Source: a virus
IMG/VR virus record: IMGVR_UViG_3300044645_002168
Location: 1 to 28,254 of that record
Strand: one strand, 5' to 3'
DNA length: 28,254 bases
This document shows, in pieces, positions 3,406 to 12,883 of this stretch (within the stretch, counting starts at the first letter, position 1; every line of letters starts with the position of its first letter). The notes below the pieces were generated by a model. That model saw nothing but the letters and a program-made list of their open reading frames with translations, ran no database searches and was not told where the DNA came from. A program made the position numbers and the translations under genes.

Positions 3406-3912
3406 TCAGCCGCCCCATCCGCCGGGGGCAGGCTGTCCCCACTGCGGCGGTGCTGCTGCTGGCGGAGCAGCTGCCGGAGGCGCCGCAGGGTAGCCCGCTG
3501 GCGGCCCGGCAGGCTGCGGCGCTGCTGCTGGCGGATACCCAGCAGGCGCAGGCTGTTGGGCAGGCTGCCCATAGGCGGGCGTTTGGGATGGGGCTGAGGC
3601 AGGAGATCCCCACTGCCCGCCGCCCTGCTGCTGCGCCTTCTGCGCTAGGTAGGCGGCGCGTTCGCTGGGGCTTTCGATCTGGCCATTGAGCACCGGGGCG
3701 TTGTTCTCGCCGGTGCCGCGCCAGACGGACAGGCGCAGCTTGAAGAACTGCTCCCCGGTTTGCTGATTGACTTCCAACCCTTGGCCCTGCTGCATCGCTT
3801 GGGACAACTCCCAGATCAGCTGGGCGGGAAGCTCGACAGCACCGTTCAGGATCGGGGCCTTGGGGTTCTGGGACGGCTGGGCGTTCCAGAGATTGACACG
3901 TGCGCTCTTCAT
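3406..3912 (-). CDS. Recombination-operon protein with Pro/Gln/Ala-rich tail, 168 aa
   Basis: The protein has a folded N-terminal part (residues 1 to about 95, beta-rich: FFKLRLSVWRG, NAPVLNGQIESP) and a long disordered tail made of P, A, G and Q up to the end. This two-part shape resembles single-strand-binding proteins, and it sits between the Erf-like annealing protein and the exonuclease, where SSBs often occur. However, the acidic tip typical of SSBs (DDDIPF-like) is absent; it ends in GGWGG. I therefore call it only an SSB-like candidate. The start is the ATG at 3912, two bases after the upstream stop; the longer open frame upstream overlaps the Erf gene and is not used. Confidence 0.6.
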   Translation of the reverse strand: MKSARVNLWNAQPSQNPKAPILNGAVELPAQLIWELSQAMQQGQGLEVNQQTGEQFFKLRLSVWRGTGENNAPVLNGQIESPSERAAYLAQKAQQQGGGQWGSPASAPSQTPAYGQPAQQPAPAGYPPAAAPQPAGPPAGYPAAPPAAAPPAAAPPQWGQPAPGGWGG

Positions 3913-3914
3913 GG

Positions 3915-4493
3915 TCAGACGTATGCGGAGGGATCGGGTTGAGGCTGTGGAGCAGTGGCAGCCCAGGGCTGCTGTTGGGGCGGAGCGGCATAGGCGGGCG
4001 CCGCCGGTGCTGGCTGCTCCCACGGCTGTGGACCTGCAGCAGGCGCCGCGTCATGCGCTGCATCCTCATCGGAGGCGCAGATGCCGAGCAGCAGCTGCAG
4101 GTTCACCCTGAAGCCGCTGGTGGCCGCAGCGCTGATCGCGCTGGAGCTGGTCAGGCTCAGCACCGGGAACTGAGACAGTCGCCAGCCGCCGCCGCTGTGC
4201 CGCAGCATGGTGGACACCACAAACCCACCCGGCACGATGCTGATGGTATTGGCGATGATCACCTGCTGCGCCATCAGGGCAGGGCGGACGGCCTCCAGCA
4301 ACCCTGGCAGGTTCAGGTAGGCGTGACGCCGGCCTTTAATGTCGGCGACGTCGTTCGGAGCCAGGCTGCCGAACGCAGGGAAGGCGGCAGCCACTGCCGC
4401 ATCAAGCGCGGCCAGTTGCTGGCCAGTGGGGCCGCAATTCGGTGGCAGCAATTCATCGATCGGGGCGGCATCAGCCCCGCGTGCTGTGGGCAT
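3915..4493 (-). CDS. Erf-like single-strand annealing protein
   Basis: A 192-aa protein matching the ERF recombination family pattern: FPAFGSLAPNDVADIKGRRH followed by YLNLPGLLEAVRPALMAQQV and a beta region with TMLRHSGGGWRLSQFPV. ERF proteins anneal complementary single strands and work with an exonuclease and an SSB in phage recombination. In the usual family the next block reads like ITYARRYALxALLGI; here it is SGFRVNLQLLLGI, so the YARRY signature is degraded although the following LLGI..DED acidic segment is kept. Residues about 145-192 form a disordered P/A/Q tail. The gene is followed directly by the SSB-like candidate. Confidence 0.75.
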   Translation of the reverse strand: MPTARGADAAPIDELLPPNCGPTGQQLAALDAAVAAAFPAFGSLAPNDVADIKGRRHAYLNLPGLLEAVRPALMAQQVIIANTISIVPGGFVVSTMLRHSGGGWRLSQFPVLSLTSSSAISAAATSGFRVNLQLLLGICASDEDAAHDAAPAAGPQPWEQPAPAAPAYAAPPQQQPWAATAPQPQPDPSAYV

Positions 4494-6418: not shown

Positions 6419-8956
6419 GTGCAGACACCTCAAGCCGCCGCTGCGGCAGGCCCCTATGGGCCCGATCGCTGGCGCCTAGAACGCCTGCCGATGCTCGCCA
6501 GTTTCGGGCCGTTGCTCCCTGGCGCGCCTGACAAACGGCCACTCGTTGGTGACGGCTGGGAGAACCATGCCGGCGTGCCCGTGGCCGAGCTACAGACCAC
6601 GGCGCCTGAATGCGTTTGCTGGCACATCGGCGCCGCCCCTGGCCACATCGCCATCGACATTGACGGGCCGAGGGCCGCGGCGTTCTGCCAGCAGCATGGC
6701 TGCGAGCCGTACACAGCCGACACCTGGCGCATCGTGCGCACCGGCAACAGCGACCGGCTGAAGCTGGTCTACACCGTCACCGCTGAGCAGAAGGCCATCC
6801 TTGCCGCCGGCGGGAAGACTGTGAAGGTCGGCATTGGCGAAGGTGGGCCCGATGACAAGGGCGAGGAGTTTGCCGTCTTTGCTAAGCACGGCACTCAGGT
6901 GGTGGTGCTGGGCCAGCACTACACGAAGGAATCTCACTTCACCGACAACGACGATCAGTATGCCTGGGCTGGCCGGCCACCTGCCGATGCGCAGCCGCTG
7001 CCGGCTGAATGGTTCGCGCTGCTGCAGGGCGTCTTCTGCGGCGATCGACCACTGCGGCCGAAAACACGACGCTCAATCTCGCCTCAGTCCACCCGCGGCC
7101 CGCGCAGCTACAGCGGCGCATCCGGCACCTGGCGCAACAGCAGTCAGCGGCAGCCATGCCCGATGTGCGGCCGCGACCACTCCGGCGCCTGCAGCATCCA
7201 TCAGGACGGCGATTCGGTCTGGTGTTGCCACGGCGAGACGAAATCAGCCCCTGATTGCAGCAAAAAGGGCGAGACGGTCACCGGCCACGATGGCCGCACC
7301 TGGGGTTATGTCCGCACCGAGGATCACGACAGCTTCGGCGAGCGCTCGCTGTTCGTGATCGACAAGCCCAAGCCGAAGCCTGACCCACCAACCCCACCCC
7401 TCAACGGCGAGCAGTTCATCCCGCCTGATGCGCCGGTGGAGCTGCCGCCGTGGCAGTTGGAGCCGGATGAGGAGGGCGACGACATCGAGCGCCAAGAGCT
7501 CGCGGTTGAGATCCGCAACTACCGCGACGTGGCCGCGGCCGCTGAGCTGGCATCGATCGATCTGGCATTCCCGCCTGGCCTGGCCAGCTTCATCAACACT
7601 TACGCCAAGGAGCAGACCCTCAAGCCCTGCGGTTTCCTGCTGCCGATCCTCTGCAGCGTGTGCTCTGTCATCGGCAACCGGGCCAGGGTGGCCATGACGC
7701 CCACCCACGCATGGAAGGAGGCCTGTGTGCTATGGGGTGCCAACATCGCTACCGCCAGCTCCGGTAAGTCGCCAACCTCCGGCCCGACCACCATGCAGGC
7801 GTTCAAGCCGTGGCAGGCGCAAGAACGCAAGCGGCACGCTGATGCCCTCTCGGACTGGAAGCATCGCCGGGCCCAGGCGGAGCGCGAGGCGAAGGCTGCG
7901 GCCTCTGAGTCAGGTGGCGCCGGTGGTGATCCCATGGCCCAGTTCCTGGCGGAGAACCCTCAACCTGAGCTGCGGCACCTGCTGGTCAGCGATGCCACCT
8001 TTGAGCGGATCGAGATGATCCTCAGCAACGGATCCAACCCGGGGCTGCTGGCCGTGCACGATGAGCTCGCTGGGTGGTTCAGCCAGTTGTGCCGCGCACC
8101 GAACCGCAGCGATCGGGCGAAGTGGCTCAGCCTATACCCCGGGGAGCAGATCATCACCGACCGGGTGGGGCGCGATTCGATCTTCGTGCCTAACCCTGCC
8201 GTCTCCCTGTTCGGCAGCTTGCAGCCGGCACGCCTCGAAGGCCTGTGGAAAGCGGACGCCGATGCCAATGAGGGCATGGCGGACGCTGATGGACTGTGGA
8301 GCCGCTTCCTGATGTTCGACCTAGGCGAGTGGGCCTATGACTATCAGGACTCGACCGTACTAATCGCCCCCGCGATCACCAACCTCTACAAGCAGGTGGA
8401 CGCGGCCGCATCAAAGCTGCCCATCGGCGAAGATGGCGAGCCGATCATCATCACCGTGGCCGAGGATGCCAAGGCCACGATGGTGCAGTGGGTCAGACAG
8501 GCGGAGTCGTTCAAGTTCGCCGCCAGCGATCCATCTGACCGGCAGTACTGGGGCAAGCAGCGCGGCGCCACCCTCCGCATTGCCCTGGCCATTCACGCGA
8601 TCAGGCAGGCCTCTGCAGGGCTGAGCCTGAACACCCCCATCCCTGAAGACGTGATCCGCGCCGCGATCATCTTCACGGCCCTCTTCGCCCGTGAGCGGGA
8701 CAAGGTGCTCGGCCCGGTGCGAACAGGTGCCGGTGGGGCGATCAAGCGGCTGCTCGACAAGGGCCGCGAGTGGCGCCGCAGTCACGGCAGCCGGCCCGTG
8801 CCTCAAGCGCAGATCAGGGCATGGTGCCTACCGGCGCGCCGCACCCCTGCCGCTGAGGTGCGCACCTGGCTGCTGTCCGTCGTGGCCGAGACCCCGGATT
8901 GCGGGCAGGTAATCCGCAAGGGCAAGGCCGTGGAGTGGGTGCCCCCTGGCGACTGA
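6419..8956 (+). CDS. Primase-polymerase / zinc / DUF3987-like helicase fusion
   Basis: An 845-aa replication protein. Residues about 25-205 read as a bifunctional primase-polymerase (PrimPol-like) domain: the catalytic DxD is in AIDIDGP (D80, D82) and a later VVLGQHY supplies the usual histidine. Residues 247-280 form a cysteine/histidine cluster (CPMCGRDHSGAC, WCC, C280), a zinc-binding primase-type module. From about residue 375 the protein resembles DUF3987 primase-helicases, with a P-loop-like TASSGKS (445-451) and a Walker B-like LLAVHDE (543-549). It would prime and unwind at the phage origin, whose iterons begin just downstream. The start is a GTG at 6419, three bases after the RHH stop; a later ATG at 6491 would cut the N-terminus. 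The gene ends 16 bp before a strong hairpin. Confidence 0.8.
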   Translation: MQTPQAAAAAGPYGPDRWRLERLPMLASFGPLLPGAPDKRPLVGDGWENHAGVPVAELQTTAPECVCWHIGAAPGHIAIDIDGPRAAAFCQQHGCEPYTADTWRIVRTGNSDRLKLVYTVTAEQKAILAAGGKTVKVGIGEGGPDDKGEEFAVFAKHGTQVVVLGQHYTKESHFTDNDDQYAWAGRPPADAQPLPAEWFALLQGVFCGDRPLRPKTRRSISPQSTRGPRSYSGASGTWRNSSQRQPCPMCGRDHSGACSIHQDGDSVWCCHGETKSAPDCSKKGETVTGHDGRTWGYVRTEDHDSFGERSLFVIDKPKPKPDPPTPPLNGEQFIPPDAPVELPPWQLEPDEEGDDIERQELAVEIRNYRDVAAAAELASIDLAFPPGLASFINTYAKEQTLKPCGFLLPILCSVCSVIGNRARVAMTPTHAWKEACVLWGANIATASSGKSPTSGPTTMQAFKPWQAQERKRHADALSDWKHRRAQAEREAKAAASESGGAGGDPMAQFLAENPQPELRHLLVSDATFERIEMILSNGSNPGLLAVHDELAGWFSQLCRAPNRSDRAKWLSLYPGEQIITDRVGRDSIFVPNPAVSLFGSLQPARLEGLWKADADANEGMADADGLWSRFLMFDLGEWAYDYQDSTVLIAPAITNLYKQVDAAASKLPIGEDGEPIIITVAEDAKATMVQWVRQAESFKFAASDPSDRQYWGKQRGATLRIALAIHAIRQASAGLSLNTPIPEDVIRAAIIFTALFARERDKVLGPVRTGAGGAIKRLLDKGREWRRSHGSRPVPQAQIRAWCLPARRTPAAEVRTWLLSVVAETPDCGQVIRKGKAVEWVPPGD

Positions 8957-8972
8957 GACGCACTGCTGCACC

Positions 8973-9035
8973 GTGGCCGGAGATCCCGGCCACCCTCATT
9001 TCAACTGAGGGTGTCAGCTGAGCTGACGCCCTTTT
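8973..9035 (+). terminator. Tandem hairpins and rho-independent terminator after the primase
   Basis: Three stems lie in line: GTGGCCGG/CCGGCCAC (8973-8980/8986-8993), CCCTCA/TGAGGG (8993-8998/9006-9011), and an 11-bp stem (9009-9019 with 9021-9031, one G-T pair) followed by TTTT. The last is a good intrinsic terminator; the second and third share bases and could be alternatives to each other. This ends the replication transcript just before the iteron region. Confidence 0.65.
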
Positions 9036-9414
9036 GGGACACGTCCCAAAGCTGCTGCCCGGCTGTCCCATGTAGCGGCAGGCCTGTCCCTGGCTGCAGT
9101 TTCAGGCGCTGGGGAGGGTGCTGGCATGGGCGGCACTGCAGCGTTTTTGGGACATTTGGGACAGTTTGGGACAGAAGTGTCCCAGAGCAAATCGACTGCG
9201 GCGCAACGGATCTGGGCAGGTTTTGGGACTTTGGGACAGCCCCTAAGAAAATACCTTTTCTATTATTTATTTAAGTATTAGTACCTAGTCCTATGGGTAT
9301 GGATGGAAATGTCCCTAGAGGCGTCCCAATGTCCCAAAACACAGCCAACCTGCTAGTGCTAGTGCGGTTTCTGCTTTGGGACAGCGCTGTCCCAAATGTC
9401 CCAAATGTCCCAAA
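9033..9414. repeat. Iteron cluster around an AT-rich core: candidate replication origin
   Basis: The 9-mer TTTGGGACA occurs exactly at 9033, 9146, 9155, 9165, 9230 and 9375, and its complement TGTCCCAAA at 9330, 9388, 9397 and 9406. There are further partial copies (9042, 9064, 9085, 9178, 9222, 9310, 9323). Copies 9146/9155 and 9388/9397/9406 are tandem; 9375-9396 is a perfect 22-bp palindrome. Most left copies point right and most right copies point left, flanking an AT-rich stretch (about 9244-9300) unlike the GC-rich surroundings. Iterons plus an AT-rich unwinding element beside a primase/helicase gene are the classic layout of an origin; which protein binds the iterons is unknown. The intergenic stretch 8957-9496 is otherwise without a convincing gene. 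Confidence 0.7.
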
Positions 9415-9467
9415 ACCACTTCAACCCTCCGAAATCCGGCTGTTTGGTGCTGATGGGTGCATCTGCC

Positions 9468-9496: not shown

Positions 9497-9883
9497 GTGA
9501 ACGTCTTGCAGCAGCTGCGCGCCGCCGTGGCCCAGGAAGGCGCCTCGACCACTCCGCCGGTGCCCACACCCGCCCCATCGCTTGCAGCCCCCGCAGCGGC
9601 GCCCCTGCGGCCCTGCCCGTTCACGTTCGGCGACTGGCTGCCCCGCACCGACCCGCAGGCCCACCCCGGCGAGGCTCAGCGTGCAGTGCTGCTGGGTGGC
9701 GTTGTGGTGGCCTGGTGGCGCCGCGAGTGGGTGCCGCCGCTGCCTATCCCCAGCTACAGCCCGCCCCTCACGCTGGAGCCGTACCAGCGCAACGCGATCT
9801 ATCTGCCCGACGGCAGCGAGGTGGAGAGCAGCTGCTGCCCTCAGACTGCTCTGCAGCGACTCGCCGCACGTCTCGGCGCTTGA
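9497..9883 (+). CDS. Hypothetical protein, 128 aa
   Basis: An unrecognised protein. Residues 15-45 are a low-complexity A/P/T stretch, probably a flexible linker. The middle part has a hydrophobic segment with tryptophans (VLLGGVVVAWWRREW, about 64-78) that is too short and too charged at its end to call a membrane helix with confidence. The start is a GTG at 9497. An ATG five bases upstream (9492) opens only a two-codon frame, ATG CCG then TGA, across the real start. It is followed four bases later by the nuclease gene, so the two probably form an operon. Confidence 0.55.
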   Translation: MNVLQQLRAAVAQEGASTTPPVPTPAPSLAAPAAAPLRPCPFTFGDWLPRTDPQAHPGEAQRAVLLGGVVVAWWRREWVPPLPIPSYSPPLTLEPYQRNAIYLPDGSEVESSCCPQTALQRLAARLGA

Positions 9884-10555: not shown

Positions 10556-10984
10556 ATGCCCCGCAACGTCAAGCTCCGTTTCCAGCGCAATCGATGCCAT
10601 GCTTCCGGCCCCGGCACTCGCTGGGGCAGCTACGAAGACACCATTGAAATCACCCCGGCATGGGCCGGCAAAGGGATCGCCATCCACAAGCCCGTCGGCT
10701 TTCATGGTGACGACGACCAGCCCTACTTCAAGCAGGTGCAAGGCCTGTGGAATTTGACCCACATCAACAGCGGCCTAGCCATGGGCAGCTGCCACGGCAA
10801 CATGGAGCGCGCCAAGGCCTACGCCAAGCAATGGGACGCCGAGTTCGCCGCGCTGCAGGCCGGCCAGCCCATGGCGCCTGATCGCATCGCCGCATGGAAG
10901 GCGGTCGTCGAAGAGATGCGCATTGAGCCCCCACGCAAGCCCAGCCAACCTGCTCACCGCCGCGGCCACCCCATAACCGCCTGA
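10556..10984 (+). CDS. Hypothetical protein, 142 aa
   Basis: An unrecognised protein with many aromatic residues and histidines in the first 90 residues (GFHGDDDQPYFKQVQGLWN, LTHINSG, GSCHGNMERA), then a helical stretch (ERAKAYAKQWDAEFAALQ) and a proline-rich basic C-terminus. The acidic/histidine stretch might bind metal but matches no motif I know. Its TGA overlaps the ATG of the next gene (TGATG), so the two are translationally coupled. Confidence 0.55.
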   Translation: MPRNVKLRFQRNRCHASGPGTRWGSYEDTIEITPAWAGKGIAIHKPVGFHGDDDQPYFKQVQGLWNLTHINSGLAMGSCHGNMERAKAYAKQWDAEFAALQAGQPMAPDRIAAWKAVVEEMRIEPPRKPSQPAHRRGHPITA

Positions 10985-11205
10985 TGGCCCTCACCAATGC
11001 CGAACACCAGCGCCGCTGGAGGGAACGCCAGGCCGGCCGCCTGCCGCCTGTGGAGCGCCCCTGCTGCACTGCCTGCGGCAAGGTCCACCGTGGCGCCCAT
11101 GGCGCCCTGTGCGCCATCTGCTGGGAGCGCACCACGCGAGAGGGCAAGGCGGCCCACTCCGAACGGGTCAGACGCGCTCAGCGCCGCAAGCGTGACAGAT
11201 TGTGA
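10984..11205 (+). CDS. Small zinc-ribbon-like protein, 73 aa
   Basis: A basic protein with two paired cysteine motifs, CTAC (residues 28-31) and CAIC (43-46), a spacing that suggests one bound zinc. The N-terminus (NAEHQRRWRERQAGR) and the C-terminus (ERVRRAQRRKRD) are arginine-rich helices. Such small zinc proteins occur in many phages and may bind nucleic acid, but the role is unknown. It starts at the ATG overlapping the stop of the preceding gene. Confidence 0.6.
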   Translation: MALTNAEHQRRWRERQAGRLPPVERPCCTACGKVHRGAHGALCAICWERTTREGKAAHSERVRRAQRRKRDRL

Positions 11206-12140: not shown

Positions 12141-12883
12141 TGTTGGAGCTGAAGCTGACAATCGACACCAAGGCAATCGATCGATTCGCCCTGCTCACCG
12201 AGAAGAACATCCGCTACGCCACAGGCCGCGCCATGGCGGCCACTGTGCGAGCTGCTGAGAAGCAGCTGAAGCAAGACTTGGCCAAGAGCTCAGGCGGCCC
12301 CATTGAGGGCGGCGCCACACGCTGGACCATCGGCGGCACCTACACTCAGCGGCCATCACCCAACAACCTCAACGCCGAGGTGGGCCTGCGATCGGATCGG
12401 CCCCGCGCAGCCGGTCGCTACATCTCCACGATGACTCGTGGTGGGCCGCCGCGCACCAAGGGCGTAGACCTCAAAGCTGCCGCCCTCGCCGGTGGCTCAG
12501 GGCTCACCATCGTGCCAACGCCTGCGCAGCGCAAGGACAGCAAGGGCAACGTGAGCCGCGCTGCCTTCAGCAAGGCGCTGGCATCCGCCTCTGTCATCCG
12601 CAACGGTCGCCAGTACAACCGGGGCGCCGGGCGGTTCTTCATCATCCCGATCAAGGGCCCGGCGGGGCGCATGGGGATCTTTGAGCGGACCGGCAAGCCT
12701 GGCCGTGGCCGCTACGGCAGTTTCCAAGGCACTCAGATGCGGTTCACCCTGGAGCCACAGCCCAAGATCCGCCAGAGCACCTACGACCTCACCGGCGACC
12801 TGCAGCGGTCGGCTCAGGTGGTGTGGCCTGGGGAGATCACGGCGCAGCTCAGGGCTGAGCTGACGAGGGCGGGGTTCAGATGA
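12140..12883 (+). CDS. Minor tail / tail-completion-like protein (gpZ/gp10-like)
   Basis: A 247-aa protein beginning LELKLTIDTKAIDRFALLTEKNIRYATGRAMAATVRAAEKQL cut here only for description: a helix pair after a short strand, as in lambda gpZ and HK97 gp10-type tail-completion proteins. The body has many glycine/arginine stretches and a beta-rich end (GRFFIIPIKGPAGR, GIFERTGKPGRGRYG, MRFTLEPQPKI) typical of prophage minor-tail proteins. It would sit at the tail end that joins the head. The start is the ATG overlapping the preceding stop; a GTG codon stands directly before it. It is odd that it lies upstream of the terminase, whereas in lambda such genes follow the capsid genes. Confidence 0.5.
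   Translation: MLELKLTIDTKAIDRFALLTEKNIRYATGRAMAATVRAAEKQLKQDLAKSSGGPIEGGATRWTIGGTYTQRPSPNNLNAEVGLRSDRPRAAGRYISTMTRGGPPRTKGVDLKAAALAGGSGLTIVPTPAQRKDSKGNVSRAAFSKALASASVIRNGRQYNRGAGRFFIIPIKGPAGRMGIFERTGKPGRGRYGSFQGTQMRFTLEPQPKIRQSTYDLTGDLQRSAQVVWPGEITAQLRAELTRAGFR

Follow-up and report, generated by a model that had tools for sequence, protein, structure and literature searches.

The primase-helicase gene and the repeat array downstream of it

The DNA analyzed here, referred to as the window, is a linear IMG/VR virus record of 28,254 bp (IMGVR_UViG_3300044645_002168) that encodes small and large terminase subunits, a portal protein, and a major head protein. It also carries a gene for a fused primase-helicase with a DUF3987 helicase domain, and 77 bp past the stop of this gene (8956) begins an array of 9-bp repeats placed on both sides of an AT-rich core (Table 1). 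The sequence comparisons described below suggest that this array is quite probably an iteron replication origin read by the neighboring helicase.

The 9-mer TTTGGGACA occurs ten times exactly in the window, where 0.14 copies are expected, and all ten lie within 9033-9414; none of 100 shuffled sequences contained as many. Allowing one mismatch adds three sites inside the array, and counting the GGGAC/GTCCC core brings the number to 17 over 380 bp. In a 400-bp sliding scan of the whole window, the array ranked first, with one 8-mer present ten times, and the next, unrelated site had four copies. These results bear out the first-pass annotation, which had counted at least ten exact 9-mers within 380 bp, as do the perfect 22-bp palindrome (9375-9396) and the AT-rich core that it described; AT content reaches 85% in the best 40 bp of the core versus 45% for the whole gap. 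The repeats had also been described as oriented toward the core, which holds for most of them but not strictly: the GGGAC cores to the right of the AT-rich stretch are one forward and six reverse, while those to the left are six forward and four reverse. Likewise, the array does directly follow the primase-helicase gene, but the terminator said to separate them was not recovered by a consensus scan near the array, which found neither a terminator nor a sigma-70-like promoter, although inverted repeats are visible at the position of the upstream terminator. No DnaA-box-like site with one mismatch or fewer was detected in the gap, and an Rfam search for an RNA element at the array returned no match.

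Table 1. Coordinates of the proposed origin, the primase-helicase gene, and adjoining features in the window.
Feature	Position	Strand	Remarks
Primase-helicase gene	6419-8956	+	Directly upstream of array
N-terminal primase half, type A (residues 1-341)	6419-7441	+	IDID motif near residue 80; CxxC cluster 247-280
Linker PPTPPLNGEQFIPPDAP between primase and helicase halves	7385-7441	+	Same or almost the same sequence after each primase type (A, B, and C)
DUF3987 helicase domain (residues 408-765)	7640-8713	+	Pfam PF13148, E 2e-47
Predicted C-terminal winged helix (residues ~771-841)	8729-8941	+	AlphaFold2 model; proposed iteron-binding domain
Block exchanged as a unit (helicase half and putative origin)	7443-9422	+	Limits from end of blastn alignments and recovery of identity
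Left iteron arm	9033-9238		TTTGGGACA at 9033, 9146, 9155, 9165, 9230; near copies 9042(-), 9178(-), 9222
AT-rich core, proposed melting site	9239-9299		85% AT in best 40 bp; 94% conserved
Right iteron arm	9311-9414		TTTGGGACA at 9330(-), 9375(+), 9388(-), 9397(-), 9406(-); includes palindrome
Downstream gene	9497-9883	+	Open reading frame (ORF) without PHROG match; start kept in relatives; outside exchanged block

The helicase domain of the upstream protein matches PF13148 with 162.6 bits against a curated cut-off of 27. An AlphaFold2 model of the helicase half, built from 12 sequences with a mean predicted local distance difference test score (pLDDT) of 72, has a fold weakly similar to those of MCM helicases and of Cch of SCCmec, with no match below an E value of 0.001. 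When the C-terminal 105 residues were modeled alone, they gave a winged-helix arrangement of a helix, a short strand, two further helices, and a two-strand wing, with block pLDDT values of 66-91 across the domain. The N-terminal half (type A) matched no Pfam family, primase models included; however, the corresponding half of a related protein (type C, below) matches Prim-Pol PF09250, and from this match and the motifs listed in Table 1 we infer that type A is archaeo-eukaryotic-primase (AEP)-like.

Exchange of the helicase half and the array among related contigs

Scans with the whole protein and with its helicase half identified 20 contigs besides the window, 21 in total; one further match, L066, is a distant relative with DUF3987 and lies outside this set. 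The pairing groups and the tally that follow are our own reading of the scan outputs. Three primase types can be distinguished, A (as in the window), B (L041, L043, L044, L063, and L064), and C (L062), as well as two helicase types, 1 and 2, whose protein identity of only 44% indicates that they diverged long ago. The pairings are A1 in ten contigs including the window, B1 in three, A2 in three, B2 in two, and C2 in one, with two further type 1 contigs ending before the primase. Primase types A and B thus each occur with both helicase types, showing that the primase and helicase halves recombine. Scans with primase types B and C yielded no further clear pairing.

The iteron follows the helicase type without exception. 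All 15 type 1 contigs, the window among them, carry TTTGGGACA, whereas all six type 2 contigs carry ATTCCACCC, in arrays that occupy the same place. In the A2 contigs the primase half is retained, with 90-100% DNA identity per 60-bp step, while the remainder of the gene and the iterons differ. For the window and L042, identity of 90-100% extends to ORF position 1020 (residue ~341), falls to 35-71% across the helicase half and the array, and returns to 95% from ~9423, nine bases past the last iteron. The same pattern is seen between L043 and L063, where identity recovers within tens of bases past the array. Alignments (blastn) of the window to L042, L039, and L040 all end at 7442, and the left crossover falls at the linker PPTPPLNGEQFIPPDAP, where identity shifts within ~60 bp in the A1/A2, B1/B2, A1/B1, and A2/B2 comparisons. 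In the A2 contigs L039, L040, and L042, the array is separated from the next conserved gene by an additional stretch of a few hundred bp that the window and L063 lack.

Conservation within type 1 is concentrated in the repeats. When 14 distinct type 1 gaps are aligned, conservation is 98% in the GGGAC/GTCCC cores and 94% in the AT-rich core, compared to 87% for the rest. The core mask was shifted circularly 392 times without once equaling the observed conservation; as the aligned gaps are related, we regard the percentages as the finding and the shift count as a guide only. Six type 1 contigs (29-44 kb) carry TTTGGGACA only in the array, apart from two of them that each have a single additional copy. 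Tandem TTTGGGACA pairs in L007, L008, and L016 were considered as further cases and rejected, as these records lack DUF3987; the pair in L007 lies inside an apparent terminase coding region and was taken as chance. L016, a 125-kb contig, also has five closely spaced TGTCCC copies (10916-10985) just upstream of an ORF.

Comparison with known replication modules

Origins located beside the primase gene are known from mapping work on dairy streptococcal phages; searches for papers on Streptococcus thermophilus phage origins and on the iterons of P4 alpha yielded nothing of use. The alpha protein of satellite phage P4 unites a primase, a helicase, and a C-terminal winged-helix iteron-binding domain in one polypeptide, but its primase and helicase belong to other families than those of the window protein.

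The module at this locus probably works like the Rep-ori module of Staphylococcus aureus pathogenicity islands (SaPIs) and other phage-inducible chromosomal islands (PICIs), but the element is not a PICI. PICI origins lie immediately 3' of rep and consist of two iteron sets around an AT-rich region, a layout that its authors ascribed to PICIs and to no other known bacterial replicon (PMC6092414). In the window the array is likewise directly 3' of the helicase gene and has two iteron sets around an AT-rich region, some copies being non-converging, and as in the islands a primase is fused or adjacent to the helicase. The iterons of SaPIs are recognized by the C-terminal domain of Rep (PMC6092414, PMC7581432); the predicted winged helix and the co-inheritance of the helicase half with the iteron may point to a similar arrangement here. 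The differences are that the window is a tailed-phage region with both terminase subunits, portal, and major head protein rather than a satellite, and that its helicase is DUF3987, whereas Cch and the SaPIbov1 Rep are DUF927-related, and Cch2 and the SaPI5 Rep have Primase_Cterm (PMC7581432). A further parallel is Cch2 of SCCmec, whose gene is closely followed by direct repeats to which its isolated C-terminal domain binds; that system, however, has only three 5-nt iterons, its primase is a separate protein of the polymerase type, and its helicase belongs to another family (PMC7581432). For DUF3987 itself, a helicase function has been predicted, in fusion with primases of mobile elements (PMC5862659). 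Our literature search found no paper mentioning both DUF3987 and iterons, although it left subscription papers mostly uncovered and earlier reports may exist.

Iteron origins had been regarded in the first-pass annotation as atypical of lambda-type phages. The idea that they are foreign to phages finds no support: several cultured phages show the same layout after their VapE primase-helicase genes. We examined the gaps 3' of these genes in 13 phage and satellite records, which were drawn from one tblastn list and do not constitute a survey. Of the 13 gaps, seven had at least four copies of one 8-mer within 300 bp; among 196 control windows taken from these loci, one did (Fisher p 4e-9). Clear arrays are found in CL31, AJG77, APSE-7, phiFL4A, and PLE2, with repeat units and spacing that vary. 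Past its VapE gene, Synechococcus phage S-LBS1 has 9-bp-spaced iterons (AGGTTGGGC / CCTAACCT) around an AT-rich stretch; it resembles the window in the order of its parts but differs in its helicase family and iteron sequence. The GC skew of S-LBS1 has its minimum at 34063, near the array but also at the record end, and for the latter reason it was left out as evidence.

Several observations on these and other records are of separate interest. In the S-LBS1 record (L090), 127 bp of the array, which lies at the end of the record, are exactly duplicated (34261-34387 and 34515-34641); this may be an assembly overlap. S-CBS1 and S-CBS3 have a portal of the same family as that of the window, but their helicase is of the RepA type; short repeats (GTGCGAAA x4, TTTGTCAC x4) lie inside the 3' part of the RepA-type helicase gene (L115, 28754-28875; L114, 31521-31671), perhaps as an in-gene origin. 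L111 encodes a primase akin to type B (37%) that continues into a different helicase-like region, and Pfam gives PriCT_1 only; a guess that the helicase belongs to DUF927 was not confirmed by Pfam. Past this gene, at 3765-4100, CGTAAC-type repeats surround a TC/AT-rich stretch.

Proposed function and alternative explanations

The first-pass annotation's reading of the locus as an iteron-type origin draws support from direct observations: the repeat array, its conservation, its restriction to a single site, and the co-inheritance of the iteron with the helicase half in the natural swap. We propose that the initiator is the protein encoded immediately upstream. Its C-terminal winged helix would bind the 9-mers on either side of the AT-rich core and, once bound, would seat DUF3987 helicase rings, which may then melt the core so that the fused N-terminal primase could prime both strands. 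The primase-helicase had already been named among the candidate initiators, and this is upheld with the refinement that the iteron goes with the half that contains the helicase and the predicted winged helix rather than with the primase half.

Several results weigh against this proposal. The cumulative GC skew of the window, suggested earlier as a check, has its minimum at 12793 rather than near ~9270. Compared against the PDB, the C-terminal model finds many winged-helix domains among its matches but none that is significant singly. Six of the 13 VapE gaps lack a clear array (none in BK735P2, FoX1, SFCi1, and RcSalem; borderline in Javan405 and Stiles). Finally, the helicase half and the array are neighbors, so that a few exchanges could have moved both without any recognition, and the 21 contigs stand for no more than a handful of independent events. 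For these reasons we take the swap as strong evidence for recognition of the iteron by the helicase half, but not as conclusive. Neutral linkage, under which the two elements move together simply as neighbors and the swap is uninformative on recognition, seems rather unlikely to us given that the helicase types share only 44% identity and yet no contig pairs one type with the iteron of the other; it is in any case compatible with an origin at the array, and its probability is not exclusive of those of the other alternatives.

Alternatively, the array could be an iteron origin opened by another initiator, either a separate phage DNA-binding protein or a host protein, with the helicase merely recruited. 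In favor of this, DNA binding by the helicase C-terminus is a prediction, and another DNA-binding protein is encoded at 1663-2130. Against it, changes in iteron sequence accompany the helicase half, not the primase half or the gene that comes next, and the gap lacks DnaA-box-like sites; we consider this explanation very improbable. The repeats might instead be operators through which a phage regulator, such as the MarR/Crp-like protein encoded at 1663-2130, or the helicase itself controls the genes from 9497 onward, with no role in replication. The array does lie upstream of a same-strand gene and the palindrome looks operator-like. However, an operator would not readily explain 17 sites spread over 380 bp on both flanks of an AT-rich core, the lack of a detectable sigma-70-like promoter in the region, the absence of repeat copies at other promoters, or the switch of iteron together with the helicase half next to an unchanged downstream gene, and we judge this explanation improbable. 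An origin read by the neighboring helicase is our preferred interpretation.

The phage and its likely host

By terminase and portal sequence, the nearest cultured relatives of the window are the Synechococcus siphophages S-LBS1, S-CBS3, and S-CBS1 (43-51% identity), with S-LBS1 providing the best cultured terminase match at 51%. As these relatives infect Synechococcus, the host is likely cyanobacterial. A genome-collection scan with the helicase alignment found a single distant relative (L067) and hence gave no host identification from genomes. The plasmid-prophage lifestyle raised in the first-pass annotation received no support: integrase, ParA, and resolvase families (PF00589, PF13614, PF00239) were all absent from 11 contigs of up to 43.6 kb, which are possibly fragments, and the named searches did not extend to other partition systems or to plasmid Rep models. 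The MarR/Crp-like winged-helix protein at 1663-2130 is a small protein encoded on the minus strand and a possible phage regulator.

Conclusions

These results give DUF3987, until now only a predicted helicase, a proposed mechanism. Taken together, we lean toward the view that DUF3987 helicases are self-loading, origin-recognizing initiators, and that a helicase half and its matching origin are traded as a plug-in cassette able to work with unrelated primase halves fused via a common linker. Ordinary tailed phages, with two or more helicase families among them, also show an origin layout that had been described as specific to PICIs. The natural swaps offer ready-made pairs with which to learn which protein half reads which iteron, and no sequence design would be needed to do so.
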